64,000 nucleotides of DNA from NCBI GenBank assembly GCA_017519405.1, contig JAFWSH010000006.1, positions 73,284 through 137,283 of the forward strand, in the 5' to 3' direction. The notes under the pieces were generated by a model. It was not told the origin of the DNA. It saw only the letters and a program-made list of their open reading frames with translations, and ran no database searches. Position numbers and translations under genes: made by a program. Below, in pieces: positions 16,661-41,965 of this stretch. Each line of letters starts with the position of its first letter. The first letter of the stretch is position 1. Source of the stretch: Clostridia bacterium (GTDB taxonomy: Bacteria; Bacillota; Clostridia; Christensenellales; Aristaeellaceae).

Positions 16661-17974
16661 CTATCGGGAACCTGCGATCTTACTCTCTATGAGTTCTTTT
16701 GATAAGACTTCATCATAGTTTACGCATATAAGCGTTATTCCCTGCTCAAGACATAATTCCTTTTTTCTTTTGTCATGCGCCTGCTGTTTTTCAAGTTGCT
16801 CGTGGCCACCCCAATGCTCCACTGCAACAAAATGTTGCATTCCTTGATATTCAAAGCCTATCAAATCGTCAGGAACGTAAACATCAAGCTCTAATCCACA
16901 CAGCCATTTGGGCCTGTAATGACGTAATATCTGTTTGCCAGGATAGATTGTTTCAACTATGTGGAACATCATGGTTTCACTGACCCATGCTTCACCAACT
17001 TTTCGATAACCTAATTGCTCTCGAACTGAATTCTCTATTATTCGTGAGATTGAATTATCTCCAAGTCCAGACTGTGATATTCTTATGATGCTGTCATACA
17101 GTTCTGGCGTACATTCATCCGGGAGTACATTGGCTTTATATATCTGATACGGATCAATCCCAAGTCGAAAATACTCTTGTTTTATATACCATCCAAAGTG
17201 CTGCTTAAACTGTCCACCATACATGGGATGGCAAAACTTTAATTTGGGAATAGCCTTATTGCATCGAAAACACAGATTGCTTTCAAAGCGGAATTGCATT
17301 AATGGATTACCATGAAACTCATTTGACATATTTGCTACTATAGGGGGAAAGAAATCTCCCCCTAACGGATATATCTTGTCACCAGTATAATTGGTCAGTG
17401 GCATTTGATAACGAAGACGAACATAATTCTCTATTGCTTTACGTTCACATTCGCAAAAGCAAATTGGACTACCAATGTCATCAGAAAACGCAAAGAAAGC
17501 ACCATAATGATTGGGATAGTAAACAATGGGTTTTGGTAAATGTTCGTATGTTATATGTCCTAAGGCAACGTCAGCTCCATGGGAATGTAGCATGACAGAA
17601 TATTTTCCTGCACTGATTCTAAGCTTATCGTAAAAATCATAGAGATCAAAACTGCTTCGATATTCCTTCTCAAAGAGCATGATCTTTGAATTCTTCCATT
17701 TGGTAACGATTTGGATTAATTCAATGATTTCTGACTGGCATTTGATAAAATCAAACACAGTATCAACTGTGCAGATAATGTGATCGCTCTCGGTACTATA
17801 CATCGATAGCAATGCAGATATTGTGATTGCCCGATCGTATTTCTTCGATCTTGACTTATAAAACTCTATCCAAATGATATGACTCATCTTCCCACAGCTC
17901 TTTTCTGGCAAGGTAACGCTATTATGGGTTCTGAGAAAAGCCAAGTATTCCAGATCACGGGAATGGTTTCTCAT
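16661..17974 (-). CDS. Zinc-finger protein with C-terminal PD-(D/E)XK-like nuclease domain
   Basis: 437 residues, visibly AT-richer than its neighbours. Cysteine pairs in CFCEC (about residue 172) and CFRC (about 234) suggest metal binding. The C-terminal 90 residues read LELDVYVP...GFEYQGMQH...HDKRKKELC...ITLICVNY, the Asp, Glu-x-Gln and helix pattern of Vsr/DUF559-like nucleases. It is the last gene of the defence operon, 36 bases after the helicase-nuclease. I cannot name a family. It may be the DNA-cutting effector. GAGG precedes ATG 17974. Confidence 0.65.
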   Translation of the reverse strand: MRNHSRDLEYLAFLRTHNSVTLPEKSCGKMSHIIWIEFYKSRSKKYDRAITISALLSMYSTESDHIICTVDTVFDFIKCQSEIIELIQIVTKWKNSKIMLFEKEYRSSFDLYDFYDKLRISAGKYSVMLHSHGADVALGHITYEHLPKPIVYYPNHYGAFFAFSDDIGSPICFCECERKAIENYVRLRYQMPLTNYTGDKIYPLGGDFFPPIVANMSNEFHGNPLMQFRFESNLCFRCNKAIPKLKFCHPMYGGQFKQHFGWYIKQEYFRLGIDPYQIYKANVLPDECTPELYDSIIRISQSGLGDNSISRIIENSVREQLGYRKVGEAWVSETMMFHIVETIYPGKQILRHYRPKWLCGLELDVYVPDDLIGFEYQGMQHFVAVEHWGGHEQLEKQQAHDKRKKELCLEQGITLICVNYDEVLSKELIESKIAGSR

Positions 17975-18010
17975 GAAATAAACCTCTTCCTGCCCACGAG
18001 AAATGGCTGT

Positions 18011-20260
18011 TTACTCGCAAAAATACCTTTCAATTCCTTTATGGCACCAGGCTTTCACATTTTCCAGATCTTCCGGTGTAAGCTGCTTCATGAGCTGCTT
18101 ATAAAACTGCAAAGTTCCAAGCTGCTTTGCGTGGTGCATCACATGCATGTCCTCAAAACGTTTGAAAGGCATGCTCAGGATCAGCCGCTCCACATCACGC
18201 TGGGTATAGCCGCCCCGAGTGAAGATACAGGCTTTCTTTTCAACCTGCAGGCCGTTTGCCCGGCGCGTCTCATAGAACTGAGCGAAATCGCGGGCGACAT
18301 CCTCAAGCCGTGCACTGCCGGTCTCATCCATGTTGTTGATGAACGCGAGCAGGAAGACCGGCTTATAGGAGTAGCTCATGGTCATCGTTTCCGCCATTTG
18401 CAGGAAGATCGCCTTCATATTCTCACGGGTGATGATAGTCCATCCGAATTCCTTTGCATAACGTTGGACGGTTGCTTTCTCGAAGAATTTGAAGCTTCTG
18501 TGTTCGCTGACCGGAACCTCCATGTCCGGTATGATCTTTCCTTCACGGATATAGCGCTCAATGGTTTCGGATTGGACGTTGACCATCTGCGTGAAGGCAA
18601 TCTGAGAGATCATATCCTTGGCCTTGTCCTGCCAGTTGAAGAGGTCAATGGTTTCAAAACCGGTCATATGGACGGGATAGTCAACAAGGACTTCTGGCTT
18701 CTTTCCCTGGCGGAACATATCCTGATCAAACTGAATTCCGTGCTTCGTCCCCAGGACCAATCCACCGGCGGTGTATTCCGATATGCCCAGCATCCGGTGC
18801 ATAGAGTATGGCATATTGAAGAGGTTGGCGTTGTCAACGAAGTCAAAGACCATCAGGAACTCTTTTCCGGGTGATTTGCGCATGCCGCGACCGAGCTGCT
18901 GCATGTATATTGTCTTCGACATAGTAGGCCGTGCCATGAAGAGAACCTGGGTATGCGGAGAATCCCAGCCTTCATTCAGCAGATCACAAGCGCATAGAAC
19001 AGGAATCCTGCCGGCTTCATAATCCGCGAGAATCCGTTTGCGTTCAGATGCTTTTGTGCTTCCGGATACGCAGGCAGCATCCACACCGCTGGCCCGGAAG
19101 CGCTCGGCAATCTCCTCGGCATGATGAACTGACGCACAAAAAACTACCGTTGGCTTGCCTTTTACATATTCGCAGTAGGTGTCGACGAGTAGCTGGTTGC
19201 GCTCCGGTACGCGGATTGTGGATTCCAGATCCTGAGTGTTGTACTTGAAACCACTGATCCGCACATCCCGCATGTCAATGTTTGTCTTGATCCGGATACA
19301 GCGGACAGGGACAAGAGTATCCAGTTCAACAGCCGTTTTCAGGTCGAGCTTATGAGCGATATTCTGGAATACCTCAAGCAGATCTTCGCCATCAGCGCGC
19401 TCCGGGGTTGCTGTGAGCCCCAGCGTAAACTCCGGCTGGAAATAGGACATGACCTTCCGGTATGTCTCCGCAGTGCCGTGATGGCATTCGTCAATCACAA
19501 GATAGCCAAAGTCGTGTGGATCAAAGGCTTCAAGGTTCTGAACAAGGCTCTGGATTGTTGCGCATACGACATAGGTCCTGGTGTCATGAATGCTTCCTTC
19601 ATAGCGGCCCACGGTCACTTCCGGCCAGATCCGGTGAAAGGCGTTCACAGCCTGATCCACCAATTCATGCCGGTGTACCAGGAACAGTGTCCGTTTTCCG
19701 AATGCTTTGGCATCCGATACCGCTGTGACAGTCTTGCCGGTACCGGTTGCGTGGAACAGGAGCGCAATAGTCTTATGCTCCCGGCGCATTTGTGCGAGGT
19801 TTTCCAATGCTTCCTCCTGATGATCCATGAGTTCCAGTGCCTGGCCTTGCTGCGGCGGGAGCGTATCTTCGATATACTGGAACATCGGAGACTGGCCAAG
19901 GAAAGTGACGAGTTCATCCTTGACCCGTTCAGGAGACCGGTCAATCTGGGCAGAAGTCCAGCGGTAAACACGCCAGCCTTCAAAAACCATGCTGTTTTGT
20001 TTCAGAAGGTCGTCGTGGTATTTGTCCTCTGACACTCTGCCCGGCTGATGCCAGGTATTGCCGTCAACCTCTATGGCGACACGGCCATCCGGGAGCCTGA
20101 CTGCAAAGTCAATCGTGCGATGACCACCATAGATATCCACCATCGGATACTGAAGGTAGACAAACTGACCTTTGTCCGCTCCAAATGCGTCGCAGAACAG
20201 TTCAATAAAGCGGTCTTCCGCACCGCTGTTTCCACCTGCGGTTCTGATAACAGTTGTCAT
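18011..20260 (-). CDS. SF2 helicase with N-terminal Vsr-like nuclease domain
   Basis: 749 residues. Residues 10-125 resemble a PD-(D/E)XK fold of the Vsr/DUF559 kind, with Asp51 in TIDFAV and Glu64-x-Asp66 in IEVDGNTWH. A DEAD/H helicase follows: Walker A GTGKT at 173-177, DECH at 257-260, LTATPER, then a C-terminal helicase domain with QLGRGMR. Proteins of this shape occur in restriction and DISARM-like loci. It ends 36 bases before the zinc/nuclease gene and starts nine bases after the MazG-like gene. GAGGTG precedes ATG 20260. Confidence 0.85.
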   Translation of the reverse strand: MTTVIRTAGGNSGAEDRFIELFCDAFGADKGQFVYLQYPMVDIYGGHRTIDFAVRLPDGRVAIEVDGNTWHQPGRVSEDKYHDDLLKQNSMVFEGWRVYRWTSAQIDRSPERVKDELVTFLGQSPMFQYIEDTLPPQQGQALELMDHQEEALENLAQMRREHKTIALLFHATGTGKTVTAVSDAKAFGKRTLFLVHRHELVDQAVNAFHRIWPEVTVGRYEGSIHDTRTYVVCATIQSLVQNLEAFDPHDFGYLVIDECHHGTAETYRKVMSYFQPEFTLGLTATPERADGEDLLEVFQNIAHKLDLKTAVELDTLVPVRCIRIKTNIDMRDVRISGFKYNTQDLESTIRVPERNQLLVDTYCEYVKGKPTVVFCASVHHAEEIAERFRASGVDAACVSGSTKASERKRILADYEAGRIPVLCACDLLNEGWDSPHTQVLFMARPTMSKTIYMQQLGRGMRKSPGKEFLMVFDFVDNANLFNMPYSMHRMLGISEYTAGGLVLGTKHGIQFDQDMFRQGKKPEVLVDYPVHMTGFETIDLFNWQDKAKDMISQIAFTQMVNVQSETIERYIREGKIIPDMEVPVSEHRSFKFFEKATVQRYAKEFGWTIITRENMKAIFLQMAETMTMSYSYKPVFLLAFINNMDETGSARLEDVARDFAQFYETRRANGLQVEKKACIFTRGGYTQRDVERLILSMPFKRFEDMHVMHHAKQLGTLQFYKQLMKQLTPEDLENVKAWCHKGIERYFCE

Positions 20261-20269
20261 GTCGACACC

Positions 20270-20590
20270 TCACGGTTCTCTGACTTCCAGGAGCCTGACA
20301 CCTTTCTCGAAACCGCCACGCTCGTCACGTTTGTGAATGCGTGCAGCCTCTACTTCGTCCCAGGAGATCCCTCTGTGATAAGCAATCCCATGCAGGACTT
20401 CCAGGATATCTGCCATTTCCTCAACGCTGGCGCTCTCCAGGTATTCCTGGACTTCTTCCTGAAGTTTCCGATCCAAAGCTGCTGCCATGGATTCATTTGA
20501 CAGGATATCAGTGACAGGTTCTTTCCCTGCCTGACGGATAACATCCGGGATCTTGTCCCTGACAAGCTTATTATATCGAAGATTGTTCAT
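20270..20590 (-). CDS. MazG-like NTP pyrophosphohydrolase
   Basis: 106 residues. It opens with YNKLVRDKIPDVI and has L-x-E-E-V-x-E-Y (about 42-50) and EEMADILEVLHGI (57-69), the acidic metal-binding helices of all-alpha NTP pyrophosphatases. It may hydrolyse nucleotides or modified dNTPs. Inside a defence operon it might deplete nucleotides or clear phage-modified ones; that is inference. It could also be a housekeeping passenger. Confidence 0.85.
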   Translation of the reverse strand: MNNLRYNKLVRDKIPDVIRQAGKEPVTDILSNESMAAALDRKLQEEVQEYLESASVEEMADILEVLHGIAYHRGISWDEVEAARIHKRDERGGFEKGVRLLEVREP

Positions 20591-20682
20591 ATCCAGTCTT
20601 TGTCTCCTTGCTTATCACTAAGTGATTCATATTGCATCTATCCTTGTCGAAACCAGCAATAGAAGCAACTGGATCAATCATT

Positions 20683-22473
20683 CTATGCGTTCCTAAAATA
20701 TCCGGTTGTTTGATCTTCTTCCCTTCCTATTAGGGCAGCTCGATCAAGCAACAGATTCCGCATCGTACACGAAGTTTCAGGAAGGAGTGCGCATTGATGA
20801 CATGCGGCATAGTTCAGCCCAAAGAGCCCTTGTGCATTAGTGCCCGTTGAAGTCATACACAATGGGTCGCCTGAGCACCATTCGGCTTCATCCAAGAGTG
20901 CATCAATGATTTCAGAAACATGCTCAGGGGCTGACTGTGCCACCAAGCCGCCGAGGCTACCTTCTGAATCAGAAGAGGATGTATAGATCAAAACACCCGC
21001 CATCGGCTTTCCGCCTTCATAGGTAGAGTATATACGCTCCTTAAGAGCTGACGTTTGGTATCCGCAACGTTTTGCCAGTGCCCGTATAAACAGATGTGAA
21101 AAAGTGTGCAGTAGGACATAGCGCGGTGACGCGTTTTCACAGTGTATATGGTTTTCTGCCACTCTCTCCATCATTGGCTGATAGATTCTGCTGTTCCTTT
21201 TCTCCCAGGATGCTATCGTGCTTTCGCTAAATCTGATAAAGATACCCTCTCCATGCATATCAACTGCGGGAAGCCAAATTGTTTGTTTGCGTGAGAAAAT
21301 CGGTGCTAAGCACGGGCTTTCCATATCCCCATCCCAGCCCTGTAGCCTTGTAAATCCGACCATAGCAACTATTTCGGTGAGACGATCTACAGCTGCAACG
21401 CCGCTGATTAAGTGCTGATACTTATGCGGGACATCCACACGACGTGAGCAGAAGTCTGCGTTCTCATCCTCTGCCTCCTCGCATAATGCAGAATACTCTT
21501 CTTCATAGAGCTCTCGGAGAGAATCAGGATGTTTTTGCTGTTGATCCGAAGTGAGAGTTTTGTACGTAGCGATGATTTGACTTATTGGGATATTTGGTAG
21601 AAGGGAACAGATTCTTCGCTGAATATACGACAGAAGTGCGTCATCGCTTTTCCCTTCCATTGCATCTAAATGGTTCAATAGTACCTTGCTGACATTTGTA
21701 CTCCATGGCGGGATATTTAGTGCTCCAATATTCACTGGCATATATACACCGGTTGATGCGCGCATTCGTACTACGGCTTTTTCTGTGCACGGCTGGAAAT
21801 CATCGTGATCCAACCATGGCTGGCTTCCTTTGCACTTATAGACAGCACCTAGAGCATCAGGCACGAATGCCTCTTGCATACTCCGAATCATTCCACAGTC
21901 TTCACATGAAACCATCAAGCTGCCCAAGCTTGTCCTGCCGTTAATGTTGAAAAGTTTCAGATGAGGAGTTGTCCCATTCGCAGCTTTTTCACATTCCTTT
22001 CCTCTGTGAACCCAAGCAGAGTATGGGAAATCGTCCAAATGTCCATGGCGGCAAAGAACAACAAAACGTGAAGGGACAAGGCGCTTTCGACAACTTGGAC
22101 AGCGTAGTTCGCCTTTCTGCAGCCCGGCTAATTCGTTTTCTGAGCAAAGACGCATACATGCAGGACAATACAACATGCGAGGAAATCGATATGCTGCTAT
22201 ATCATGACTGTACGACCGCTTATAGATTGCGCGCTGCTTTGTGTCACATCTCGGTTTCACAAAGAACTGTCTGTCAAGGATTTTTTCAAGATTGTGACAA
22301 TGAATGATTCGGCTTTCATCTTCGCCAGTCGGACGGTACCAATCATCCGCACCAGCTAATACAGCCGTTTCATCGCGAAAGTCAACCATAGCTCCGACGC
22401 CCATCGACGTTATAAGTTGTGACGTGCGCAATTCTCCGAGCTCTTTTACCTCACGCCTGATCATCTTTCGCAT
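20683..22473 (-). CDS. drmB: DrmB, DUF1998-domain DISARM subunit
   Basis: About 596 residues from ATG 22473 (AGGAG nine bases upstream). It begins with the DrmB-type ELRTSQLITSMGVGAMVDF. Zinc-type pairs follow (CPAC, CPSC and CEDC). The C-terminal DUF1998 core has LLHTFSHLFIRAL, ERIYS, VLIYTSS and GSLGGLV. In DISARM, DrmB acts with the DrmA helicase to block incoming phage DNA. It follows drmA directly, start and stop overlapping within a few bases. Confidence 0.88.
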   Translation of the reverse strand: MRKMIRREVKELGELRTSQLITSMGVGAMVDFRDETAVLAGADDWYRPTGEDESRIIHCHNLEKILDRQFFVKPRCDTKQRAIYKRSYSHDIAAYRFPRMLYCPACMRLCSENELAGLQKGELRCPSCRKRLVPSRFVVLCRHGHLDDFPYSAWVHRGKECEKAANGTTPHLKLFNINGRTSLGSLMVSCEDCGMIRSMQEAFVPDALGAVYKCKGSQPWLDHDDFQPCTEKAVVRMRASTGVYMPVNIGALNIPPWSTNVSKVLLNHLDAMEGKSDDALLSYIQRRICSLLPNIPISQIIATYKTLTSDQQQKHPDSLRELYEEEYSALCEEAEDENADFCSRRVDVPHKYQHLISGVAAVDRLTEIVAMVGFTRLQGWDGDMESPCLAPIFSRKQTIWLPAVDMHGEGIFIRFSESTIASWEKRNSRIYQPMMERVAENHIHCENASPRYVLLHTFSHLFIRALAKRCGYQTSALKERIYSTYEGGKPMAGVLIYTSSSDSEGSLGGLVAQSAPEHVSEIIDALLDEAEWCSGDPLCMTSTGTNAQGLFGLNYAACHQCALLPETSCTMRNLLLDRAALIGREEDQTTGYFRNA

Positions 22474-22475
22474 GG

Positions 22476-25400
22476 TCACATTCTCCTCTTCAGATAAACA
22501 CCAGATTGTGTATCTACATTTCGCATTGAGTTCATGGTCGGGGGGAAAGCGGCGTCATCGCTTCGCTCTGCCGGTATCAGGAGTGCGTCTGTATCATTTT
22601 CTGATCGATTAAGCAACTGGTATTGAAAATGAGAACCACGCAATGCTGCTGCTCTATCCCACATATATATGAACTCGTCCAGAATCTCTTCGGCATAATC
22701 TGCGGTTTCAGATGAACGCAGGCGTATCAAGGCAATCAGATCATCTCGGATACTCCGAACAGCTTGACTACTTTCCCGGAACTTCGATGCGTCTTGATTC
22801 TTGGAGAGATCAGGGCATAAATGTCGAATCATGGTCACAAATACAGCATGAAGTGCCTTGTCGAGCGTACGACAAGCATAAGGGGTCGCACTTGTGGGTT
22901 CAACCATCTTGTTCAATGCCTGATGATAAGATTGGAACTGCTCAAAATGGCTTTTGTCACGCGTACGCAACATATGAAGAAGCACTATCACAAGCCCCGG
23001 GTTAGACCGGCCAACACGGCTCGTTGCCTGAATGTACTCAGATGTTGATTTTGGCTGTCCATATACTGTCATCAATCCTAGTCGATTAATGTCGATACCT
23101 ACTGAGAGCATATTACTGGATAGCACATAGTTAAGAGCAGCCGGGCTTGGATAATGCTCCTTATCCAATTGATTCCTTACTTCCAGGATCTCACGCGCGT
23201 TTTTCCTGCTCGTCAGTTCGCCATACTCATACTCGGTGGATATTGGTGTCATGTCAACCCTTGCTGCATCATCCGCGAATTTGTGACGCCGTAACGATTC
23301 TGCGTAAGCGCATACTCGGTCGATAATCAATGTGTCTGCAGACCCCAAATCTTTCAGTGCATTGAAATAGCCGACGTTTGTCCAGAACTGATCAATAATA
23401 CTGTCGTCTATACCAAGGCATTCAAGATACTGCAGCGCAAACTTCACTGTTCCGAATGTTCTGACAATTGCATCAGACAAACTGCCGCCAGTTTCACAGT
23501 ATCCAAGATACATACGTTGTGGACGCTCATCAGGGCTGGCAGATCGAGCAAAGAAAGAATCATCTGCATCAAACCCGGACGGTGGAAACTGAAATGCCTT
23601 CTTTCCGTATAGCGCTTGAATCTGACCGCTGGCATTGCAAAGTGTCGCAGTCGAAGCCAGTATCTTGGGCCTGACACCATGCTGGGCAATCAATTTTTCA
23701 ATAGCGATCTCATATAAACCGCTAATCGACCCAAGCGGGCCAGAAATCAGGTGAAGTTCATCCTGAATCAACAGTTCCGGGGGTAATCCTATGCCGTCTT
23801 CAGCAAATAGTGACTTCGTTTTTTCTTCCCAAGCAAGTCGAGCGAATTTATCAATGGTCCCTATAAGCAATGTAGGCTTCCGATCGTAGATATCGTCGTC
23901 CACCGTGACGACTGGCAAATCATCATGAAAAGGGCAAGCCGTACTAGGACAGCGCGCTTTGAAGTGCCGCTGAACCACGCTGAATGCTGTTTGTGGATCC
24001 AATCTGGTTCCACAGTATGGGCAGTCTGATAGTTGAACAGGGGATGTCTTCACCTCATCTATTAATCCAGATTTTAGCTTTTCCAATACGGTTTCAGCTG
24101 ACTCTGAATCAGGATTATCAGAAACCGCATGGTTAGGCGTTACTTCACTTCCAACCCAAAGACCTATCGATATTTCACCTCCAGGCAAATGCTCCTCGCG
24201 CCGAATCAGATCACATTCACAGATTAACGCTGCAGCACGCTCGAATTGTTGCGAAGTAAGCATACGAAGAGTATAGCGCATTAGCACGGTAATGCCCCGT
24301 CCAATTTCGCCTTTTGTAAGTCTGCGATAGAAAATCGTGAAAGTTGCCACGCCCAGATAGGCTTCCGTTTTTCCTCCACCCGTCGGGAACCAAAGCAAGT
24401 CGACGCTGTCACGCCACGGGGATTGAATGTCGACAATGTCTGGTATACACATTAGAACATAGCACAATTGAAATGGATACCAGGAAACTTCTGATTCTGG
24501 TTGATGCCGTCTCTTTGCTGACTGCCTCATCATTGCTCTGTTTGTTAGGCAAAAAGCTGTCCAGGCAGTATCACTGGTATGAAGAGTTTCAACACCTGCT
24601 TTTAGTCTGGTTATACATACTCCAATCTTGGCTAGGATATCTTCTGCAGTCAGCCGATAACTTTTTGGTATGTGGGGAAGCTGCTCGCGAAGGGTGTCCG
24701 CCCAGAGAGCATATCTTTGAATATATGCTGACAGTTCTGCCAATCCGGTGTCTCGAAAAGAGTCCTTCCAAGGTTCCATTTTGAAACACGAGGACTCTGT
24801 ATCCGTAACTGCTATCATTTGAAAGACTATTGCCTTGGGAAGGAATGTGCTGCTGATCTCAACTACCTGTTCAGCATCAGTGTCCCAAGCTGCAGAACAC
24901 CCGTGGCCAGCACCATACCGATGGGTATTGCGATAAAGAAAGTCCATCTTTGCACGATCTTCATCGCCGGAAGTCCTAGTAGAATCATCTATGGGGACAA
25001 AAGTGCCTCTGACAATCAGCGAACACTGGAATAGTGCAGATGTATTCTGGTCAATCTCGTTTTGAGAGGCGTTTTGCGTGTTTTCAATTGATATGGTCCA
25101 AAGTGAGTGGTGGTTTGGCAACTGATGCCGACGAACGATTTGCATGCCAACAAGATCACCGAACAGCTTCTTCTTCATACGCCGGGGAGGAAGGTCAATC
25201 GACATAATCCCGGAATCAAGTGCAACTCGGCTGTAGTCGTGAAGTGTATACTTCTTCTCCGGGACAGGCCTGTCAATGTTCTCGTACCTTGCGCATGTAA
25301 AGGAAACATCGATTGTTCTTTCGCTGTCAGGGAGCGCAAAAGACAGCGCCATAACAGAAGGACGAAACTGGTTTGCCTCACGGATGACGTCATCAACCTC

Positions 25401-25643: not shown

Positions 25644-25655
25644 AATCATCTCCTA

Positions 25656-28139: not shown

Positions 28140-28152
28140 ATCCTCACCGCCT

Positions 28153-30830: not shown

Positions 30831-30876
30831 AAGCTGTCTCTCCTTTTTGTTATGCATGTTGTGAGGCTACCATTGA

Positions 30877-33789: not shown

Positions 33790-33882
33790 TTTCGCTCCTC
33801 CTCGTTTGGTTGCTAGCCTTATTGTATCATATTTTTTGTTGTGAATGGTCACTTGGCGGGCGACTTTTATGAAAGTGTCTTG

Positions 33883-34464
33883 CTAACCACAGCGATATTT
33901 TGATTTGTCGGCTTGATGGACAAAGGCAGAAAATTCCTTTTGTACCCTTTGACTTGGTACGACGATAGTGTACTTTCTTTGCGTTGTTATTGGAACCTGT
34001 TTTCGAGTTGACTGTTGCATCTCTCCTTCGTATTGCCTAACAAAATACGAATTTTCAAGATATGCTTTCAAGTATTCAGGAGTGAAATGCTCCTCGTTAC
34101 ACCTAAATGCGGTTAGTGAAGTGCCAAGAATAACAATTGGTGCGTCTGTTCTTAGTATAGCAACAGGGCCAACCGTTGCATTATGAGCAAACAACACATC
34201 ATTATTCCTTGCTATTCCTTTGCGGAATCTTTTTGAGCGCTCAACAGTGACATATTTAGCATTTTGAAAGCAGATGATGCCATCCGAAATGCAATTTGCA
34301 CTGATATACGGGACACCTGAGTCAACAAATTCATCTGCTCTCGGGTATTCTCCTCCATGATTTCCATCAAGGTGATAAGTTATCCATCCCATGTCGATGA
34401 GCTTCTGAAGACTGTATTCAGGCCAGGTTATTATTCCAGGTCTATAGTCTCCGAACATCTCCAC
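33883..34464 (-). pseudogene. Promoterless spare HsdS specificity cassette (second TRD only)
   Basis: 193 residues open from MEMFGDYRP to DKSKYRCG. It corresponds to the second half of an HsdS: the conserved central SQFVEMFG, one target-recognition domain, then ADKSK. The frame extends upstream to S-Q-F-V-E-M but meets a stop (TAA) in the recombinase's tail, so it has no first TRD or credible start. Its ends coincide with repeats shared with the first HsdS gene (34448-34475 and 33894-33911). It is best read as a storage cassette for recombination. Confidence 0.75.
33894..33911. repeat. 18-base repeat at the outer end of the spare TRD cassette
   Basis: Identical to 36724-36741 in the first hsdS gene, same orientation. 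It encodes the start of the D-K-S-K-Y segment that follows the second TRD. Confidence 0.8.
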
Positions 34465-34475
34465 AAATTGCGATT
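34448..34475. repeat. 28-base repeat at the inner end of the spare TRD cassette
   Basis: Identical to 37203-37230 in the centre of the first hsdS gene, same orientation. A diverged copy lies near 36120-36142 in the second hsdS. It ends six bases from the recombinase stop codon, a likely recombination site. Confidence 0.85.
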
Positions 34476-34480
34476 GGCAA

Positions 34481-35473
34481 TCAGCTTAGGAACTTCCGGT
34501 GGCTAAGCTTCACATTGCTCTGATCCACCATAGCGTACTCCATTGTCGTCTCAATCTTGGAGTGGCCTAAGAGGCGCTGCACCTGTTCCACAGGCATCCC
34601 TTTGTCTATCGCACGGGTAGCCAAGGTGCGCCGGAACTTATGCGGATGTACCCGACCAACCTCCAATCTCCGACCAAGTTGCCTTACCCTGATTTCGACA
34701 CCGCTGATCTCAAGACGCCTATGTGGATTTTGTAATGATACGAACAGTGCGGGGTTGTCATCTGAGCGGCTTTCCAGATAGTTCCGCAGATGAACCTTAG
34801 TCCGTGCATCGAAGTATACAGGCCGTTCTTTGCTTCCTTTGCCAAAGACAACGCACTCCCTTCCTTCAAAATCGATATCTGCCCGGTTCAGCCGTACCAG
34901 TTCGCTGACGCGAATACCGGTGGAAGCCAACAGATCGATCATGGCCAAATCCCGCAGGCAGGTACACCCATCGCGCAATGCTTCCAAAGTCTCGTCGGTG
35001 TAGGTTTCCTTGACTTGCTTCTCCGATTTCACCTTGTGAATCCTGCGCACAGGGCTTTTCAAAATGTAGTCCTCATCCTCCAGCCAGGAAAAGAAGCTGG
35101 AAAAGATTCTCCTTAAGTTGTCAATGTTCGCTTTGCTGCAGTCGGTGCGCTGACGATAATCTGAGAGATAGGTACGCAGATCTTCCGTTTTCACCTGAGT
35201 CATCGGCATATTGAGACCGGCGAAGAGCTTTCTCAGCGTGGTTTCATAATACCGAACGGTCTTTCCACTGCAGCCTTCCACCCGTTTCGCATCAAGAAAC
35301 GCAGTCAGAAGTTGTTCGTTACTCGGCTCTGATGTGGCAGCTTTTCCCTCGGAAGGTGTGATGACGACTCTAGCAAGGCTTTCCTGAAGAACAGACTGCA
35401 GCTGCAAAAGCTGGGCGTTGTTGAGGGCGCTTTGCATTCCACGGAGGATGTTACTGATGAGCTGATCTTTCAT
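34481..35473 (-). CDS. XerC/D-like tyrosine recombinase within the type I locus
   Basis: 330 residues. Catalytic residues Arg188 (GIRVSEL), His278-x-x-Arg281 (HPHKFRR), His304 (LLGHS) and Tyr313 (MEYAMV) are all present, with an N-terminal core-binding domain. Recombinases of this type next to hsdS genes shuffle target-recognition domains. Its 3' end abuts the 28-base repeat shared by the cassette and the first hsdS. AGAGGTG precedes ATG 35473. Unlike the usual invertible layout, the repeats here are direct. Confidence 0.9.
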   Translation of the reverse strand: MKDQLISNILRGMQSALNNAQLLQLQSVLQESLARVVITPSEGKAATSEPSNEQLLTAFLDAKRVEGCSGKTVRYYETTLRKLFAGLNMPMTQVKTEDLRTYLSDYRQRTDCSKANIDNLRRIFSSFFSWLEDEDYILKSPVRRIHKVKSEKQVKETYTDETLEALRDGCTCLRDLAMIDLLASTGIRVSELVRLNRADIDFEGRECVVFGKGSKERPVYFDARTKVHLRNYLESRSDDNPALFVSLQNPHRRLEISGVEIRVRQLGRRLEVGRVHPHKFRRTLATRAIDKGMPVEQVQRLLGHSKIETTMEYAMVDQSNVKLSHRKFLS

Positions 35474-35522
35474 GTTGATACACCTCTTTCATTGATGTAC
35501 CAACATCCTGCACCAGCTGTAA

Positions 35523-36668
35523 TCAGCCAAAGATTCTGTTCATGATTGCTGTTCGGCTCTTTTCGAGGGATTCGAGGGCTTGTCGGATTGCCAATTTTGA
35601 TTTGTCAGTCTGTCTGTAGAACTCGACCAGATACTTCTGCCCCTCTTGAGGAAGATCTGGAACTGGGAATAAACGTATATCTTTCAAATTCAATCCGACT
35701 TGCGCAACACCCAGTACACTTTTCTGCATAACCTCCTGCATAATAGGGCTTTCCAATACACCCTTAACAAATAATGGGTCATACTTTTGCTTCAAAGAAA
35801 TACGGGCTGTATGTTGTGTGATATTTGCGCCTTCAAGTTCCTTTGGGACAATAGCGACACGACCAATCGTTCCACCGATGGATAAGAGCACATCACCCTT
35901 AAGAAGTGTAGACCGCAGATACTTAGAATTTAATTCCGGGCTTGTGTGAAGCATGTCATCAGTGTGAATTGTTCCATCAGTATAATCTTTCACGCGTACT
36001 ACCGGAACACCACCTTCGTAGTTAGTACCGGGCTTAACTATGCCATAAGTAACTGGACGATCGGCTGCAACCATATCCTGAATCAATACTACTTTTCCAC
36101 TTTCAGCATAAGGTTTAAGCATCTCTACAAATTGCGATTTCACAAGATCATCTGTGGCGACAATTAAGCTGAGATAATGACGTCTCAAGCGTTCATATGC
36201 CCAAAGCAAATCAGTAATATAATGTAATTGATCACCTTCTGGCAATTTGAATTCATATCCTTCAAAGTCTTTCCAGTTCAAAAAGTAATTTGTTGAACCA
36301 TGTCTGTGGGCTGTTGCATAACTCCAAAAAGCTTCGGTCTGAAAGATAAATGGTATAAGTCGCTGTGGCAGTATGCTCTCATCGCGTGTCCGGCACACAT
36401 AACTAACATCTGAACAAATGCCATCAAAGTTGACAACCCCTGCTTTGCGAAGATGAGGATTTCTGGACATCAACAGTACATCACCCGGACGAAAACGCAT
36501 ATGGAAAGCAGGGCCGATTGTACTACCTTGAAGAATGCCACGTTTGGTAATCTGTACCTCGCCACAATCAAAGTGCTCTCCACCAACATAGTATTCAAGC
36601 TCAGTGTCATCTTTATCAACTATTTCTTTGACGCGACATATGACATCTCGAAAAGCTACTTTCCTCAC
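35523..36668 (-). CDS. hsdS: Type I specificity subunit HsdS, second copy
   Basis: 381 residues from GTG 36668, which overlaps the stop of the first hsdS (GTGA); GGAGGG lies six bases upstream. Two target-recognition domains (about 1-150 and 190-340) are separated by the conserved helical region containing DDLVKSQFVEM and followed by a second conserved helix ending in the usual KSRTAIMNRIFG. It looks complete. With one of the two HsdM proteins it should define a methylation and restriction sequence different from the first HsdS. Confidence 0.9.
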   Translation of the reverse strand: MRKVAFRDVICRVKEIVDKDDTELEYYVGGEHFDCGEVQITKRGILQGSTIGPAFHMRFRPGDVLLMSRNPHLRKAGVVNFDGICSDVSYVCRTRDESILPQRLIPFIFQTEAFWSYATAHRHGSTNYFLNWKDFEGYEFKLPEGDQLHYITDLLWAYERLRRHYLSLIVATDDLVKSQFVEMLKPYAESGKVVLIQDMVAADRPVTYGIVKPGTNYEGGVPVVRVKDYTDGTIHTDDMLHTSPELNSKYLRSTLLKGDVLLSIGGTIGRVAIVPKELEGANITQHTARISLKQKYDPLFVKGVLESPIMQEVMQKSVLGVAQVGLNLKDIRLFPVPDLPQEGQKYLVEFYRQTDKSKLAIRQALESLEKSRTAIMNRIFG

Positions 36669-37744
36669 GCAACATCCCTCCTTTCACGGCGTTTGGGGCT
36701 TGTCTTGCCATCAATGAGATCCAGATATTTTGATTTGTCGGTCCGAATAATAAGGCTTTCGTATGCTGTTTGCAGCTCTATAGGCGGGAGCATGACCGGG
36801 ATGGTGTCCATGTTCTCACGATTAAGCTTTTTTTGATCGATGCCTGTAACCCAGTGACTTATATCCATGTATTTTATGTAATATTGTAGGAATACCATGT
36901 TCAGTTCTGGCTTGCATTGCAAAACATGCGCATGATTATTGACCCAAATCTTCCCGGTAACAATAAACGCAATATCATAGTTCCGAAACTCCAGAGCTTT
37001 CCCATCTTCAGATATAAGGAGATAAGTGCCATCCAAGCGAAAATCATTGACATGATCCACTATGCCTGTGGCTCCATAATATGGATAAGGGCCCTGCATG
37101 GCTTTTCTATCGCCCTCCTTAACCGGCTTTCGTTTGCTATCAAAGCAAACGGTCAGTTCCCCCAAGGGTACGGTTGCAAATCGTGCGGATTCTTTATTTG
37201 GTTCTCCGAACATCTCCACAAATTGCGATTTCACGAGATCATCCATCTGTGACAAAAGCCGCTTATACGCTTGACGAGTGCGTTCAAATCCCCATAACAG
37301 ACGAGCCAGTTCTCTCTGTTTATCAATTGGAGGAAGGCTGAATTCAAGCTCCTTTAGCGTTGACCAGTTGACAGTTGGAGATAAGGATCCCACGGAAATA
37401 CGAATGGCTGCATCCATGAAATAATCCGAGGCTATAAAGAATGGGAAGAAGGAAGGATCAACGACTTCCGTCTTTGGATGAAGAATCATACCATGTGCCG
37501 AGAACAATCCGTCATGCGGAGCGATTGCTGCACGCCTCAGATATGTATTCCTTCTGCCGAACAGCAAATCTCCCTTATGCATGACCAGCTTTTGACCAGT
37601 GATGTCAACATCGCTTCCCCAACGATGGACTGTTAAGTCACCTGTATCAAGGTGCTCTAGCCCAATATAAGTTGCTTTATCATCAGGTGTAGGGATGCGC
37701 TTTTCCTTGCTGTTTTCAGCTATCTGGCAAAACTTATATCGCAT
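36665..37744 (-). CDS. hsdS: Type I specificity subunit HsdS, first copy, atypical tail
   Basis: About 359 residues from ATG 37744, which overlaps the hsdM end (AGGGGG eight bases upstream). Two TRDs flank the central DDLVKSQFVEMFGE helix. After IIRTDKSKY the expected long C-terminal helix is replaced by about 20 basic residues (SPKRRERRDVA), so the tail looks cut or replaced, perhaps by past recombination at 36724-36741. The 28-base repeat at its centre matches the spare cassette. Confidence 0.88.
   Translation of the reverse strand: MRYKFCQIAENSKEKRIPTPDDKATYIGLEHLDTGDLTVHRWGSDVDITGQKLVMHKGDLLFGRRNTYLRRAAIAPHDGLFSAHGMILHPKTEVVDPSFFPFFIASDYFMDAAIRISVGSLSPTVNWSTLKELEFSLPPIDKQRELARLLWGFERTRQAYKRLLSQMDDLVKSQFVEMFGEPNKESARFATVPLGELTVCFDSKRKPVKEGDRKAMQGPYPYYGATGIVDHVNDFRLDGTYLLISEDGKALEFRNYDIAFIVTGKIWVNNHAHVLQCKPELNMVFLQYYIKYMDISHWVTGIDQKKLNRENMDTIPVMLPPIELQTAYESLIIRTDKSKYLDLIDGKTSPKRRERRDVA
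36724..36741. repeat. 18-base repeat after the second TRD of the first hsdS
   Basis: Identical to 33894-33911 at the end of the spare cassette, same orientation. Confidence 0.8.
37203..37230. repeat. 28-base repeat at the centre of the first hsdS
   Basis: Identical to 34448-34475, same orientation. It encodes S-Q-F-V-E-M-F-G between the two TRDs. Recombination between the two copies would delete about 2.76 kb and join the first TRD of this gene to the spare TRD in frame. Confidence 0.85.
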
Positions 37745-39221
37745 CAGTATTGCCCCCTTCAATCAAGTCCACTACAGACTGGCATTCTTCTGAACAAACA
37801 GCAGCTACTTCCATCCATTCTGCAATAGCATCTTCAACGGCGACAGTATCATCTGCTTCAGTAAAGCTCTGAACATATAATGGAATGCTGAGCTTCGAAT
37901 CATTTGCCAGTATTTCTTCAATGGTGGCTATCGAGGAGAACCTCTCTTCCTCCTGGTAGTTGAGGTAAGCATCTGCTACACGTTGAATCTGTTCTTCTGT
38001 CATGTAGCTTTCAGCGTTCTTTCTGGTAACTTCCAGCCTTGCATCAATAAACTGGACTTTGTGCCTGCGTTCTATTGGCTTGTTTGTTCTGCAGATGACG
38101 ATGCAGGCTTCCATGGGCGAATTATAGAAAAGATTCTTGCCGAGCCCAATGACACACTCAACAAGATCGCTCTCTACCAGTTTCCTGCGCATATCTTTTT
38201 CTTCTTCACGGAAAAGCACGCCGTGAGGGAACAGGATCGCGCATCGACCAGTATCTGGTTTAAGACTCTTCAGAATATGCTGAAAGAAAGCATAGTCAGC
38301 ACGGCCCTGTGGTGGTGTACCGAGGAAATTTCGACCATACTTATCGCTTTCAAACGCAGTGCGATCCCACTGTTTGATAGAGTATGGCGGATTAGCCAGC
38401 ACCAGATCAAACTGCTGAATCTGTCCGCCCACCACGAAAGCCGGATTGCGTAAGGTGTCTCCGGTGACAATGTGAAAGTCCGAAACTCCGTGAAGAAACA
38501 GGTTCATTCGACCGATAGCGCTGGTCAGGTCATTGATTTCCTGGCCATAGATTCTGACATTCCGATATTCCTGCCCATGTTCCCGGATCCAGGCGATAGA
38601 GGAAATCAGCATGCCTGCGCTGCCGCAGGTTGGATCATAGATGCTTTCCTGGCTCTGGGGCCGGAGCATCTCCGTCATCAGGTGAACCACGGTGCGGTTG
38701 GTATAGAACTCCTGCGCCGTGTGACCGCTGTCATCCGCAAACTTTTTGATCAGGTATTCATAGCCTTGGCCAAGTTCATCCTCGGGACAGTTCGCGATGG
38801 AGAGTGTAAGCCGGGAGAAATGCTCAAGCAGATCCTTCAGGAGGCGATCCGGTAGACGACTCTTGTTCGTCCACGCACCGTCGCCAAAGATGCCGGTGAG
38901 TTTCTCCCCATTGGCCTTTTCGATGGCCCGGAAGGCGTTCACTATTGCCTGACCGACATCTTCAGTCACCATACGAACATCTCTCCAATGGTGCCCCTTC
39001 GGGATGATGAACGTATGCTCATCGGCAAACAGGTCAGCGTCTTCGCCATACTGCGCTTCAAAAGCCGCGGTCTCTTCATCATAAACATCGCACAGCCGTT
39101 TGAAGAAGAGCAGCGGAAATATGTATTGCTTGTAGCTGCCGGCATCAATATTTGTGCGCAGCAATACGGCAGAACCCCACAGATAGGATTCTAGTTCCGA
39201 CATCGGGATGCGATCAGCCAT
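37734..39221 (-). CDS. hsdM: Type I N6-adenine methyltransferase subunit HsdM
   Basis: 495 residues. The N-terminal helical HsdM domain (1-140) is followed by the methyltransferase core with motif I DPTCGSAG (196-203) and catalytic NPPY (277-280). It should methylate adenine at the site chosen by HsdS. The start overlaps the end of the fusion gene by eight bases and AGGAGG lies upstream. It is the second HsdM of the locus, similar to but clearly diverged from the HsdM part of the fusion. Confidence 0.93.
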   Translation of the reverse strand: MADRIPMSELESYLWGSAVLLRTNIDAGSYKQYIFPLLFFKRLCDVYDEETAAFEAQYGEDADLFADEHTFIIPKGHHWRDVRMVTEDVGQAIVNAFRAIEKANGEKLTGIFGDGAWTNKSRLPDRLLKDLLEHFSRLTLSIANCPEDELGQGYEYLIKKFADDSGHTAQEFYTNRTVVHLMTEMLRPQSQESIYDPTCGSAGMLISSIAWIREHGQEYRNVRIYGQEINDLTSAIGRMNLFLHGVSDFHIVTGDTLRNPAFVVGGQIQQFDLVLANPPYSIKQWDRTAFESDKYGRNFLGTPPQGRADYAFFQHILKSLKPDTGRCAILFPHGVLFREEEKDMRRKLVESDLVECVIGLGKNLFYNSPMEACIVICRTNKPIERRHKVQFIDARLEVTRKNAESYMTEEQIQRVADAYLNYQEEERFSSIATIEEILANDSKLSIPLYVQSFTEADDTVAVEDAIAEWMEVAAVCSEECQSVVDLIEGGNTDAI

Positions 39222-41652
39222 TGATGTAGCCTCCTTCCTGTAGGAGCCTTGTCAGTTCGGCTTCAGCGGCTTTCACTTCCTCCAGTGCAGCCATGAAACG
39301 CTGCCGGACTTCAGCAGGAGAAATCGTTGGGGCCTGCGTCTTTTCAATGTAGGTGTTGACAGATAGTGTATAGCCCTTTTCGCGGATCGTGTCCAGATCC
39401 ACTACAGCGCACAGATCGATGACATCCTCATAGCGCTGCCACAACTGGTACACCCTCGCGATGTCCTCTTCTGTCATGATATTCTGCGCACGCTTCGGCG
39501 TAAAAATCGTACTAGCATCGATCATGCAGACTCTGCCGCGATGGGAAGCAGGCTTGTTGTTGTTCAGGAACAGGATGCAGGCGGAGACGCCAGCCCCGTA
39601 GAATACTCCGCCCACCAGCGTGATCACGGCTTCCAGCTTGTCAGACTCGATCAGTTGTTTCCGGATTTCACCTTCTTTGCCGCCATGGAACAATACGCCT
39701 TGCGGCATAACCACGGCGCAGCGGCCAGTGTCACGCTTCATGGAGCAAACCATATGCTGGAGCCAGGCGAAATCTGCATTGGAGTCCGGCGGGCAGCCCC
39801 AGATATTCCTGCCAAACTGATCCTGAGAGAAAGCTTCTGCGCCCCAGCCTTTGAGGCCGAAAGGCGGATTGGCTAATACGCAGTCAAAGCGCCGGATGGA
39901 CCCGCCGGAGAGAAACTGCGGATGCGTCAGCGTATCCTCCCGCAGGATACTGAACTCCTTTGCACCATGCAGGAACAGATTCATCCGGGCGATGGCAGAA
40001 GTCGAAAGGTTCTTCTCCTGTCCGAAGATATGTCCATAGGCCGCCTGCTCATTGCCCATCTGACGGATTGCTTCGATGAGCATGCCGCCGGTTCCGCAGG
40101 CCGGGTCATACACAGTATCACCGGGCTTTGGGGCCAGCAGCTGCACCATCAGCTTCACAATGGAACGGGGAGTATAGAACTCGCCTGCATTCTTTTTGCT
40201 CAAGTCGGCGAACTTCTTGATCAAGAATTCATAGGCATCGCCCATGATATCCGCCGAATAATTCTGATTTCCCTTTTTGACGGAGCTCATGTGCTCAATC
40301 AGATCTTTCAGGTCTGCATCTGTCAGTTTACCCTTGTCAGTCCAGCTCGCGTCATCAAAGGCAGAATACAGACCGGCCAGCGTGTCGGGATTGGCGTGCT
40401 CAATCCCCATCATGGCATTGACAATGGCTTGGCCTACGTCCTCGGTTGTTTGCCGCAGATCATTCCAATGGCATCCCGGCGGAATGATGAAGGTATGGAT
40501 CTCGGATTCCTCGAAGATTTCACTGTAATCGTCTCCGTACTGTGCGATGGCTGCCTGGGTCTCTTCATCGTAGCAGTCCGATATGCGCTGCAGAAACAGC
40601 AGCGGAATGATGTATTCCTTGAAATTCTCATGGCTGATATGGCCATGGAGTACATTGCAAGCCTGGTACAGGTGGCTGAAAAGCCTGCTTGCTGTTGTCT
40701 CCCGACTTTCGATTTCTGTTGAAGCTTCCGCCTGTTCCGTTATGCCGATGGCGTCCAGCATGGAAAGCTGGCGTGTTTCCTCCTGTGCCGGAGCAGGGTC
40801 TGCGGCAGCTTTCCCGGGCGTGAAGGACACCGGACGAGTCATGTCGATGCCTACCTTCTTCTCCAGCGCAATCCCATACGTGCCTTCGAAAGCATTCAGA
40901 ATACCAAGCTGTGTTTCGTCCAGAAAGGTCAACACATGATTCCGAATCTCCGCCGGAATCCCATAATACGCTTCTGCAATGCTGCCGGCCATCGCAGCGA
41001 TGGTATCGCTGTCACCGCCGATGGATATGGCATTTCGGATCGCATCCTCGAAGCTTGTAGACTCGAGGAAGGCTTCAATTGCCTGCGGGACACTGCCCTG
41101 ACAGGAAACATCAAATTCATAGGTGGGTCGGATCTGATCAAGCGTGAAATCGAGTGGATAGTACTCCTTATGGATGTGATCCCGGATTTCTAGCATGCTG
41201 GCACCTTGACGCGCCATAAAGATGGCAGCTGTGATTGCACGGGCGCCTTTCATACCTTCCGGGTGGTTATGAGTGACTCCTGTTACGACGTCTGATAAAC
41301 GCAGTGCCTCTTCCATGGAAGCCGCTGCCCACGCGCAGGGAGAGACACGCATCGCTGAGCCATTTCCCCAGCTGCCATAGGGAAGAGGTTTGTCTGATTG
41401 GAGCCATTGCCGAAAACGGCTACCATAACCGTGAGGGTATTTCTGACCCAGCTTGCGCATCGAGTTGGTTGTTAGCTCTGACAGTTTGTTCCAATCACCA
41501 TGGCAGTCCAAAATGGCTTGCGCTATCGCCAGTGTCATATTACTGTCATCTGTTGGATGGCATCGATAAGTCAGAAGCTCAAAATCCTTGGATTTGTGGT
41601 TATTCCACTCATAGCGTGAACCAGAGATGTCACCAATGATCGCACCGAGCAT
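39214..41652 (-). CDS. hsdM: ADP-ribosylglycohydrolase-HsdM fusion
   Basis: 812 residues. Residues 1-265 are an ADP-ribosylglycohydrolase (DraG/ARH type): GDISGSRYEW (7-16), metal ligands TDDS (34-37) and GGDSDTIAA (212-220). After a linker (about 270-318) comes a full HsdM: helical domain 320-460, motif I DPACGTGG (516-523) and NPPF (595-598). Both halves keep their key residues. The glycohydrolase would remove ADP-ribose from protein or nucleic acid, perhaps reversing attack by phage ADP-ribosyltransferases. The frame is continuous with no internal start evident, so it is a real fusion. GGAGG precedes ATG 41652. Confidence 0.92.
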   Translation of the reverse strand: MLGAIIGDISGSRYEWNNHKSKDFELLTYRCHPTDDSNMTLAIAQAILDCHGDWNKLSELTTNSMRKLGQKYPHGYGSRFRQWLQSDKPLPYGSWGNGSAMRVSPCAWAAASMEEALRLSDVVTGVTHNHPEGMKGARAITAAIFMARQGASMLEIRDHIHKEYYPLDFTLDQIRPTYEFDVSCQGSVPQAIEAFLESTSFEDAIRNAISIGGDSDTIAAMAGSIAEAYYGIPAEIRNHVLTFLDETQLGILNAFEGTYGIALEKKVGIDMTRPVSFTPGKAAADPAPAQEETRQLSMLDAIGITEQAEASTEIESRETTASRLFSHLYQACNVLHGHISHENFKEYIIPLLFLQRISDCYDEETQAAIAQYGDDYSEIFEESEIHTFIIPPGCHWNDLRQTTEDVGQAIVNAMMGIEHANPDTLAGLYSAFDDASWTDKGKLTDADLKDLIEHMSSVKKGNQNYSADIMGDAYEFLIKKFADLSKKNAGEFYTPRSIVKLMVQLLAPKPGDTVYDPACGTGGMLIEAIRQMGNEQAAYGHIFGQEKNLSTSAIARMNLFLHGAKEFSILREDTLTHPQFLSGGSIRRFDCVLANPPFGLKGWGAEAFSQDQFGRNIWGCPPDSNADFAWLQHMVCSMKRDTGRCAVVMPQGVLFHGGKEGEIRKQLIESDKLEAVITLVGGVFYGAGVSACILFLNNNKPASHRGRVCMIDASTIFTPKRAQNIMTEEDIARVYQLWQRYEDVIDLCAVVDLDTIREKGYTLSVNTYIEKTQAPTISPAEVRQRFMAALEEVKAAEAELTRLLQEGGYING

Positions 41653-41669
41653 TGTTTTGCCTCCAAACT

Positions 41670-41891
41670 TCAGGTTTCAGCCTTAACGGGATCTCGGACT
41701 ACTTCAACAATATCGCCAATATCGCAGTTGAGAGCTTCACATATGCGTAGCAGAACATCAGTAGTAAGGTTATCTCCACGTCCCAGCTTCGCAATACAGT
41801 TTGGGCTGATCCCTGTCATTTGCTGTAGTTTACGTTTGTTGAGGTTCTTGTCGATCAAAAGCTTCCATAGCTTATTATAACTGAGTCGCAT
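41670..41891 (-). CDS. XRE-family regulator at the head of the defence operon
   Basis: 73 residues from ATG 41891 (GGAGG five bases upstream). A Cro/CI-type helix-turn-helix, NKRKLQQMTGISPNCIAKLG, fills the protein, as in small single-domain regulators. First gene of the operon, 17 bases before the fusion gene, so it probably controls the whole run, typically as an autorepressor. Confidence 0.85.
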   Translation of the reverse strand: MRLSYNKLWKLLIDKNLNKRKLQQMTGISPNCIAKLGRGDNLTTDVLLRICEALNCDIGDIVEVVRDPVKAET

Positions 41892-41936
41892 GCTTACCTC
41901 CTCAATGATGCTGTGGACTGCACAATAATCCATATT

Positions 41937-41965
41937 ATTTTACCAGATTGTATCTCAATCCTCAA
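41937..41965 (-). promoter_or_regulatory. Promoter of the defence operon
   Basis: On the minus strand TTGAGG (41965-41960), 17 bases, TAAAAT (41942-41937), about 46 bases before the XRE start. I see no other clear promoter until the end of the operon. Confidence 0.65.

Follow-up and report, generated by a model that had tools for sequence, protein, structure and literature searches.

Why should a bacterium place an Hsp70 gene of its own kind directly ahead of the helicase genes of a DISARM-type defence system? The question is raised by a 64,000-nucleotide stretch of Clostridia bacterium contig JAFWSH010000006.1 (positions 73,284 to 137,283 of the forward strand; assembly GCA_017519405.1), referred to here as the window, in which an earlier sequence-only reading had seen a composite defence operon. 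The source genome is a draft of 2.27 Mb in 37 contigs and is 80.3% complete. The open reading frames (ORFs) of the window were named by their Pfam and PADLOC matches, with NCBIfam also run, and the gene list and coordinates of that reading were borne out: type I restriction-modification (RM) genes, a coiled-coil gene, Hsp70, UvrD, DrmA, DrmB, a MazG-like gene and two nuclease-type genes, with the start of UvrD set here to the ATG at 28139. We give a modest preference to the interpretation that the window holds a five-gene DISARM-related defence core, in which a chaperone would serve in sensing or licensing, in tandem with an unrelated RM system. The five core genes are as follows.

29571..30857, minus strand: core gene 1, coiled-coil protein of 428 residues, with N-terminal helices, a linker, a coiled coil of about 120 residues and a short C-terminal helix
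28153..29574, minus strand: core gene 2, Hsp70 of 473 residues (Pfam PF00012, E 3e-39), with a nucleotide-binding domain and a substrate-binding beta domain, no lid
25656..28139, minus strand: core gene 3, UvrD-type SF1 helicase of 827 residues (Pfam PF00580), with Walker A and B motifs and a C-terminal extension
22476..25649, minus strand: core gene 4, DrmA, a YprA-type SF2 helicase of 1057 residues (PADLOC DrmA E 2e-204; PDB 7s9v E 2e-123)
20683..22479, minus strand: core gene 5, DrmB, a DUF1998/MZB protein of 598 residues (NCBIfam DrmB_fam 448.9 bits, cut-off 240; Pfam MZB)

Gene order and distribution of the core

Loci for comparison were gathered by a DrmA-guided scan, from which the best 80 of 590 confirmed genome loci were taken, so that the set leans to window-like DrmAs; all window proteins were compared by tblastn with these and with seven plasmid loci. 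A window-type Hsp70 lies directly ahead of UvrD and DrmA in nine of the best 80 (L030, L031, L032, L033, L035, L036, L037, L038 and L039), each with an ORF of 352–452 residues directly before the Hsp70; L036 belongs to Anaerosalibacter bizertensis and L039 to Eubacterium coprostanoligenes. A scan of viral contigs with the Hsp70 alignment added L155, and a sample of 398 genomes of one phylum, unbiased by DrmA, added L171. Together with the window, the order coiled coil, Hsp70, UvrD, DrmA is present on one strand at 12 loci, spread over Bacillota, Synergistota, Melainabacteria and one viral contig, and a complete DrmB comes next in ten of them, L032 and L171 being cut by contig ends. L035 and L168 are one contig and were counted once, and L071, with a weak Hsp70 match on the opposite strand, is not a member. 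This shared order places Hsp70, the coiled-coil protein and UvrD with DrmA and DrmB, as the sequence-only reading had proposed, and we have little doubt that these five genes make up a genuine unit of their own.

The DrmA proteins agree with this grouping. A tree of 91 DrmAs, built by a quick method with SH-aLRT support and no bootstrap and with many rows uneven in letter make-up, unites the 12 Hsp70-linked DrmAs with those of L029 and L040 in one clade (SH-aLRT 100), apart from four canonical reference loci on plasmids that are annotated as DISARM, all with drmD and three with an annotated drmC. The DrmA of L029, whose contig starts inside drmA, is 70% identical to that of the window over 986 columns. 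The tree omits L060 and L061, for which no DrmA frame was picked, and L034, in which DrmA is split over two frames; its rows called class 2-like are labelled by ORF length alone.

In the 398-genome sample the window-type Hsp70 (E <1e-90, with DnaK-like matches beginning at 1e-67) is found in eight genomes, its own included, and six of these have the coiled-coil gene. The UvrD alignment gives two full-length matches over the same genomes (G425 and G379), the rest being partial. The relatives search, over 59 other genomes, gave no DrmA match at E <=1e-10. Viral contigs scanned with one DrmA sequence gave none either, while the Hsp70 alignment found 13 loci there, of which L155 is the only family member. 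We also observed, just before the coiled-coil gene, a family of 640–1040 residues at four loci (L035:1831-4881, L036:2880-4802, L170:5385-8006 and L171:6680-9802), separated from that gene in L170 by a 141-residue ORF; it has no Pfam match where checked (L035, L036) and no PADLOC match where checked (L036, L171).

The Hsp70, its coiled-coil neighbour and the Cys-rich domain of UvrD

The N-terminal domain of UvrD contains four cysteines that are invariant in an alignment of 12 sequences (67, 89, 94 and 100 in alignment numbering). A profile of this domain, run on 1,836 ORFs picked from loci from L022 on (some loci being present twice), matches only ORFs directly after this Hsp70, and does so at 17 of 17 loci, the window and 16 others, five of which (L169, L170, L172, L173 and L174) were outside the profile build. 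A six-frame control recovered the domain at all 16 positive loci and at none of 50 UvrD loci without the Hsp70, a control set that includes L034 and L077, which start too near UvrD for judgement. This linkage is our strongest evidence, and because of it we suggest that the Hsp70 and the Cys-rich domain work together. L169 and L172 have lost the Walker and helicase motifs and kept the N- and C-terminal parts of UvrD (a simple Walker A pattern also misses L031, where the loop is divergent), and at L173 and L174 the Cys-rich domain is encoded by itself, as a small protein of 233 and 224 residues, respectively. The Hsp70 of these last two loci (genomes G690 and G649) is more distant, and their neighbouring genes look housekeeping-like by eye.

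The Hsp70 itself combines a nucleotide-binding domain that keeps its ATPase residues with a substrate-binding domain, and lacks the lid. The ATPase-site Lys, Glu, Asp and Thr, which in DnaK numbering we take to be Lys70 and Glu171, with the Asp and Thr from the phosphate-2 loop, are intact in all 15 family members, as they are in 11 DnaKs. Family members are 473–515 residues long (781 in L037), compared with 603–631 for the 11 DnaKs, and the predicted model of the window protein (pLDDT 88.8) terminates in strands. Over both domains it matches DnaK structures with TM scores of 0.62–0.81 among the matches listed, 7krv_B being the highest, and the lid-less DnaK forms 5obu and 5obv give 0.65–0.66. 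No PADLOC family matches it at E <=0.001; in a sample of 291 genomes of the class the best match beyond its own genome (E 3e-45) is a 620-residue, DnaK-like frame; and on plasmids and phages identity reaches at most 31.5% among the matches listed, several of which are annotated as DnaK.

The coiled-coil proteins (n=10) align as one family, with 12–18% identity to that of the window and strong mutual profile support, and their profile independently matches L155, L169, L170, L171 and L172. The AlphaFold model of the window protein is weak (mean pLDDT 58.4, with values above 85 only within part of the coiled coil) and has no PDB match at E <0.001. A plasmid search with the coiled-coil protein of the window or of L039 returned nothing.

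From these genes we infer a defence activity exerted by a complex. DrmA and DrmB would together make up a split helicase of the YprA type, loading on DNA whose 5′ ends are single-stranded, a property suggested here for the window proteins and reported in Serratia DISARM, and UvrD would be its partner helicase. The Serratia study describes DrmAB as binding 5′-overhang DNA once a trigger loop (residues 176–232) is displaced (PMC9142583). Because window DrmA has an acidic stretch at about residues 52–91 that aligns to the trigger loop region, although shorter, loop autoinhibition may persist, and the Hsp70 with the coiled-coil protein would add a second lock, answering a protein signal. These two proteins would bind the Cys-rich domain, with the complex held inactive or unassembled, until unfolded or assembling phage proteins caught in the Hsp70 beta domain, or the ATP cycle, bring about release; a neighbouring nuclease would then cut the DNA, either a NERD helicase, at other loci, or, in the window, the helicase-nuclease or the 437-residue protein encoded after DrmB. 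The bacterial immune protein bNACHT25 is reported to need DnaJ and in this way to rely on a host chaperone for phage sensing (PMC12169576). We regard the chaperone gating step as plausible and tentative, somewhat short of probable.

Several points weigh against this interpretation. The Hsp70 family lacks the D-x-LLLD linker of DnaK, so classical allostery may not apply. A role of the coiled-coil protein as a GrpE exchange factor was considered and rejected: its profile matches 11 GrpEs of the class with a probability of 1.2% over 38 columns of the coiled coil, and GrpE is not among the best 25 of 119 Pfam families (E <=10) for this protein. Among the eight genomes with the Hsp70, DrmA adjoins it in three (the window, G425 and G379) and is absent in four (G508, G454, G690 and G649), the locus in G422 being cut by a contig end; because the Hsp70–Cys domain pair also occurs without DrmA, the link of the Hsp70 to DrmAB is not obligatory. 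L040 lies within the DrmA clade and has no Hsp70, with Zorya-like genes instead, and the DrmAs of other clade members have their most acidic stretch at another position. Finally, the step that we describe as gating could just as well concern assembly or stability.

That last point leads to the alternative in which the Hsp70 and coiled-coil protein only help the large UvrD and DrmA proteins to fold or assemble, with no part in sensing. The peptide-binding beta domain would serve such a role, the complex would be large, and the gene order could mirror its assembly. However, other DrmA clades manage without an Hsp70, the Hsp70–Cys domain pair is also present without DrmA, and the same slot is filled by Zorya-like genes in L040 and by a Sacsin/TmtA-like protein in L042 (single annotated cases), such that we think this explanation unlikely. 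Because L040 and L042 fill the Hsp70 position with other genes, the position has the appearance of a sensor slot. At L040 (3622-9992) ZorA1-like (E 6e-25), ZorB1-like (E 8e-75) and weakly ZorC-like (E 3e-4) genes lie directly before UvrD-DrmA-DrmB, and on its predicted gene content this locus is a Zorya-DISARM hybrid. In L042 (2057-7564), from Dehalococcoidia, a large protein that combines a Sacsin/TmtA-like region with a helicase region is encoded just before the same three genes. Similar ORFs of about 1600 residues were seen in Actinomycetota loci, L042 being the only one annotated.

The loci without DrmA extend the chaperone interpretation in another direction. At L169 (genome G508) the coiled-coil gene, Hsp70 and a shortened UvrD are followed by PLD (DrmC-like), AddB-like (by eye), UvrD2, BrxP-like, SspB and SspC genes, a putative chaperone module beside a phosphorothioate-type system; in G454 the Hsp70 module is followed by an opposite-strand gene up to the contig end. 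It is conceivable, and we offer the idea with reserve, that Hsp70, coiled coil and Cys-rich domain form an exchangeable sensor of protein damage or phage proteins mounted on varied DNA-attacking cores. These would be UvrD-DrmAB in the window and the PLD, AddB-like, SspB-like and SspC-like genes in L169, and related UvrD-DrmAB cores would carry the Zorya-like genes of L040 or the TmtA/Sacsin-like protein of L042 in the same slot.

The restriction-modification block and the remaining genes of the island

The core belongs to a run of 16 consecutive ORFs spaced by -29 to 92 bases, in an island of 48.2% GC between flanks of 55.8% (left) and 63.3% (right). The island looks foreign, and in it the five-gene core stands in tandem with a type I RM system to which it is unrelated. 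Its other features are listed here.

16661-41933, minus strand: operon of 16 ORFs
41965-41937, minus strand: weak promoter-like sigma-70 site, with TG ahead of the second hexamer
41670..41933, minus strand: HTH regulator, first operon gene (Pfam HTH_26)
39214..41652, minus strand: in-frame fusion of ADP-ribosylglycohydrolase (Pfam PF03747, residues 1-232) and HsdM1 (PF02384)
37734..39221, minus strand: HsdM2
33883..37762, minus strand: HsdS cassette, with HsdS genes at 36665-37762 and 35523-36668 and a half gene at 33883-34464
34481-35473, minus strand: tyrosine recombinase, within the HsdS cassette
30877..33852, minus strand: HsdR (Pfam HSDR_N, SWI2_SNF2)
20270..20590, minus strand: MazG-like (PRA-PH) accessory protein of 106 residues (Pfam 22.0 bits, cut-off 21.3)
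18011..20260, minus strand: SF2 helicase of 749 residues with an N-terminal MTES_1575 endonuclease-type domain (35.4 bits, below the cut-off of 38.2)
16661..17974, minus strand: last gene, protein of 437 residues with a C-terminus that is PD-(D/E)xK nuclease-like by eye
16552-16590, both directions possible: terminator-like hairpin with a 13-bp stem and an 11-base loop, followed by T's (fold of -19.3 kcal/mol on the minus strand)

HsdM, HsdS and HsdR are all present upstream of the core, as in a type I RM system. The three HsdS genes, three direct repeats in the cassette (at 34456, 36120 and 37211) and the recombinase make recombinational specificity switching likely. We presume the pneumococcal tvr locus to be alike in its HsdM, HsdS copies, tyrosine recombinase and direct repeats, and the comparison concerns an RM block that is independent of the Hsp70-Drm genes. 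This independence is best seen in genome G117, where HsdM1, HsdM2, HsdS, recombinase, HsdS, HsdS and HsdR follow one another as in the window, with identities of 64% for HsdM1, 63% for HsdM2, 60% for the recombinase and 62% for HsdR, and lower values for HsdS (best 39%). In the 5.9 kb past HsdR in G117 there is no match to any window protein; the genes there encode proteins of 286, 310 and 325 residues and then an ABC-type ATPase (by eye). Of 245 genomes from the class, 32 have an HsdR match (E <=1e-60), among them the genome of the window.

The sequence-only reading had taken HsdRMS and the Hsp70-Drm genes for a single composite, with self-marking methylation for the DISARM-like genes provided by the type I RM enzymes. 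All are on a single strand, with 19 bases between hsdR and the coiled-coil gene, and methylase or RM genes occur near some relatives, such that methylation by neighbours may matter: L038 has an LlaJI endonuclease, C5 methyltransferases occur in plasmid loci without Hsp70 (L022, L024 and L025), and at L039 two C5 methyltransferases and a Vsr-like gene, assigned by motif, adjoin the coiled-coil gene, and frames of the N6_Mtase family lie on either side of the Hsp70, at roughly 8 kb (upstream) and 17 kb (downstream). The only methylases of the window operon are the HsdM proteins, and among relatives of the core, several of them on short contigs, methylases lie near L039 alone. However, none of the 11 other core loci has a match to window HsdR in the DNA read, nor do the extra flanks of L030, L033, L035, L039 and L171. 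Because the core is found without HsdR and the RM block without the core in G117, the single-system idea fails, and does so on the very finding that the sequence-only reading had named as its refutation; we consider it quite improbable, and judge from this distribution that the RM block is a separate, ordinary system.

The glycohydrolase part of the fusion is missing from the HsdM1 gene of G117. In the class sample ADP-ribosylglycohydrolase is mostly a separate frame of about 265–300 residues, 47–62% identical to that of the window, and no second copy was found at E <=1e-60 in the window's own genome (80% complete). Glycohydrolase genes were also seen near two core loci, at L179:6979-7800 (51% identical, some 12 kb away from the core of L030) and at L038:18330-19319.

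The genes after DrmB differ among loci. The MazG-like gene has no tblastn match (E <=1e-4) in the 87 loci. The operon lacks drmC, the PLD nuclease gene, as the sequence-only reading had said: Pfam finds no PLD domain in the operon proteins, and DrmC is not among the PADLOC matches listed. DrmC is described as apparently non-essential in the Serratia study (PMC9142583). The further proposal that the helicase-nuclease takes the place of drmC did not hold up. Homologues of 55–58% identity are present in G155, G094 (two copies) and G145, and no other window gene was found around L238, L239 and L240 (the G155 copy, one of the two G094 copies and the G145 copy, with up to about 1.5 kb on each side). 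Because these close homologues stand alone in three other genomes, it is not a fixed replacement of DrmC; we consider it a candidate effector here and probably an independent gene elsewhere. Weak matches to it (23–29% identity) in 36 of the best 80 loci, mostly to the helicase part of a large ORF upstream of UvrD, we take to reflect a shared helicase fold. The 437-residue protein has no match in Pfam, PADLOC or NCBIfam at the thresholds used. In five other loci a NERD-domain helicase follows DrmB (L035, L037, L038 and L039 by Pfam, L155 by blastp), in L036 a reverse transcriptase gene (15020-17131, PF00078) lies directly past it, in L031 a DUF4357-like gene (below cut-off) and in L033 an opposite-strand gene follow, and L030 ends there.

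The RM block, the terminal helicase-nuclease and a GC content unlike both flanks would fit a defence island of independent systems piled up with their gene order set by chance, but such an island cannot account for one order at 12 loci in several phyla with a single DrmA clade, and for the core we disfavour it as very improbable.

One promoter and one terminator had been proposed for the operon. A promoter-like site is indeed present at its start; we call it weak because the scan of that stretch gave three sites compared with a mean of 1.4 in shuffles, and 14 promoter-like sites are listed within the operon, compared with 22.6 in shuffles. At the other end the hairpin was seen and could terminate in both directions, while a terminator scan of the operon 3′ end (loops of up to 8 allowed) found no terminator. 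Beyond the operon start, the region 42030-42828 contains a tRNA-Arg(CCT) whose 5′ half is repeated 300 bases off (37 bases at 42491 and 42791), with many GTTAGCAG/GTTAGCTG-type words around it, and is possibly an integration scar.

Relation to known systems and meaning of the core

The core shares with DISARM an adjacent DrmA and DrmB, and window DrmA aligns over most of its length to 7s9v, which we take to be Serratia DrmA. It differs in having a UvrD with a Cys-rich N-domain, an Hsp70 and a coiled-coil protein, and in having no recognised DrmC, DrmD or dedicated DISARM-type methylase of the DrmMI or DrmMII kind; neither DrmD nor DrmE is among the matches listed for the core genes (for UvrD, the best 25 of 43 PADLOC families). 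Window DrmA, besides standing in a separate clade from the four drmD loci, scores below both NCBIfam DISARM cut-offs (838.2 bits for DrmAS, cut-off 950; 602.2 bits for DrmAL, cut-off 999). By these cut-offs, and by DrmC and DrmD, the core falls outside DISARM, and judging from its proteins it should act like DISARM at the DrmAB level.

Three other comparisons are informative. ARMADA type II likewise has a YprA helicase and a UvrD/GajB-type helicase that carries an additional N-terminal domain, and it alone has a BrxHII-like helicase, a PglX-like methylase, a one-piece YprA with a C-terminal Vsr nuclease and a RelE-like domain on UvrD; a word search of the main text of its description finds no mention of Hsp70, chaperone or DnaK (PMC12458937). 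In the core DrmA and DrmB are separate genes, and no BrxHII or PglX is among the matches listed. CoCoNuT type III, as described, also has an Hsp70-like protein with nucleotide- and substrate-binding domains, together with coiled coils, in a restriction operon, but the motifs of its CnuD are degenerate and it occurs with McrB-type GTPases (PMC11090510), whereas the ATPase residues of the window Hsp70 are intact and the core has no McrB; Pfam finds neither an McrB-type NxD GTPase nor an McrC homologue in the operon. The UvrD-DrmA-DrmB loci without Hsp70, on plasmids and in other genomes, share DrmA and DrmB, the C-terminal extension of UvrD (L022, L023 and L027) and a NERD helicase (L022 and L027), but have no Hsp70, coiled-coil gene or Cys-rich UvrD N-domain, and we found no published name for them.

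In the open-licence literature we found no paper that pairs an Hsp70 with DISARM or DrmAB, the two terms co-occurring only in the CoCoNuT paper, and no published subtype with this gene order, in keeping with the view of the locus as a DISARM-related variant; nor was a dedicated Hsp70 paired with a DISARM-type helicase found in the gene libraries searched.

How DISARM-type helicases spare host DNA and detect phage is only partly understood. A dedicated Hsp70 that seems competent as an ATPase and is connected to such a helicase by a recognisable partner domain would open the question to tests by single mutants, and the succession of this Hsp70 and the Cys-rich domain provides a clear marker for locating further systems of this kind. 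The slot ahead of UvrD-DrmAB can apparently be filled by different sensor-like genes, and if the chaperone interpretation is true, bacteria would license a DISARM-type helicase in response to a protein signal.

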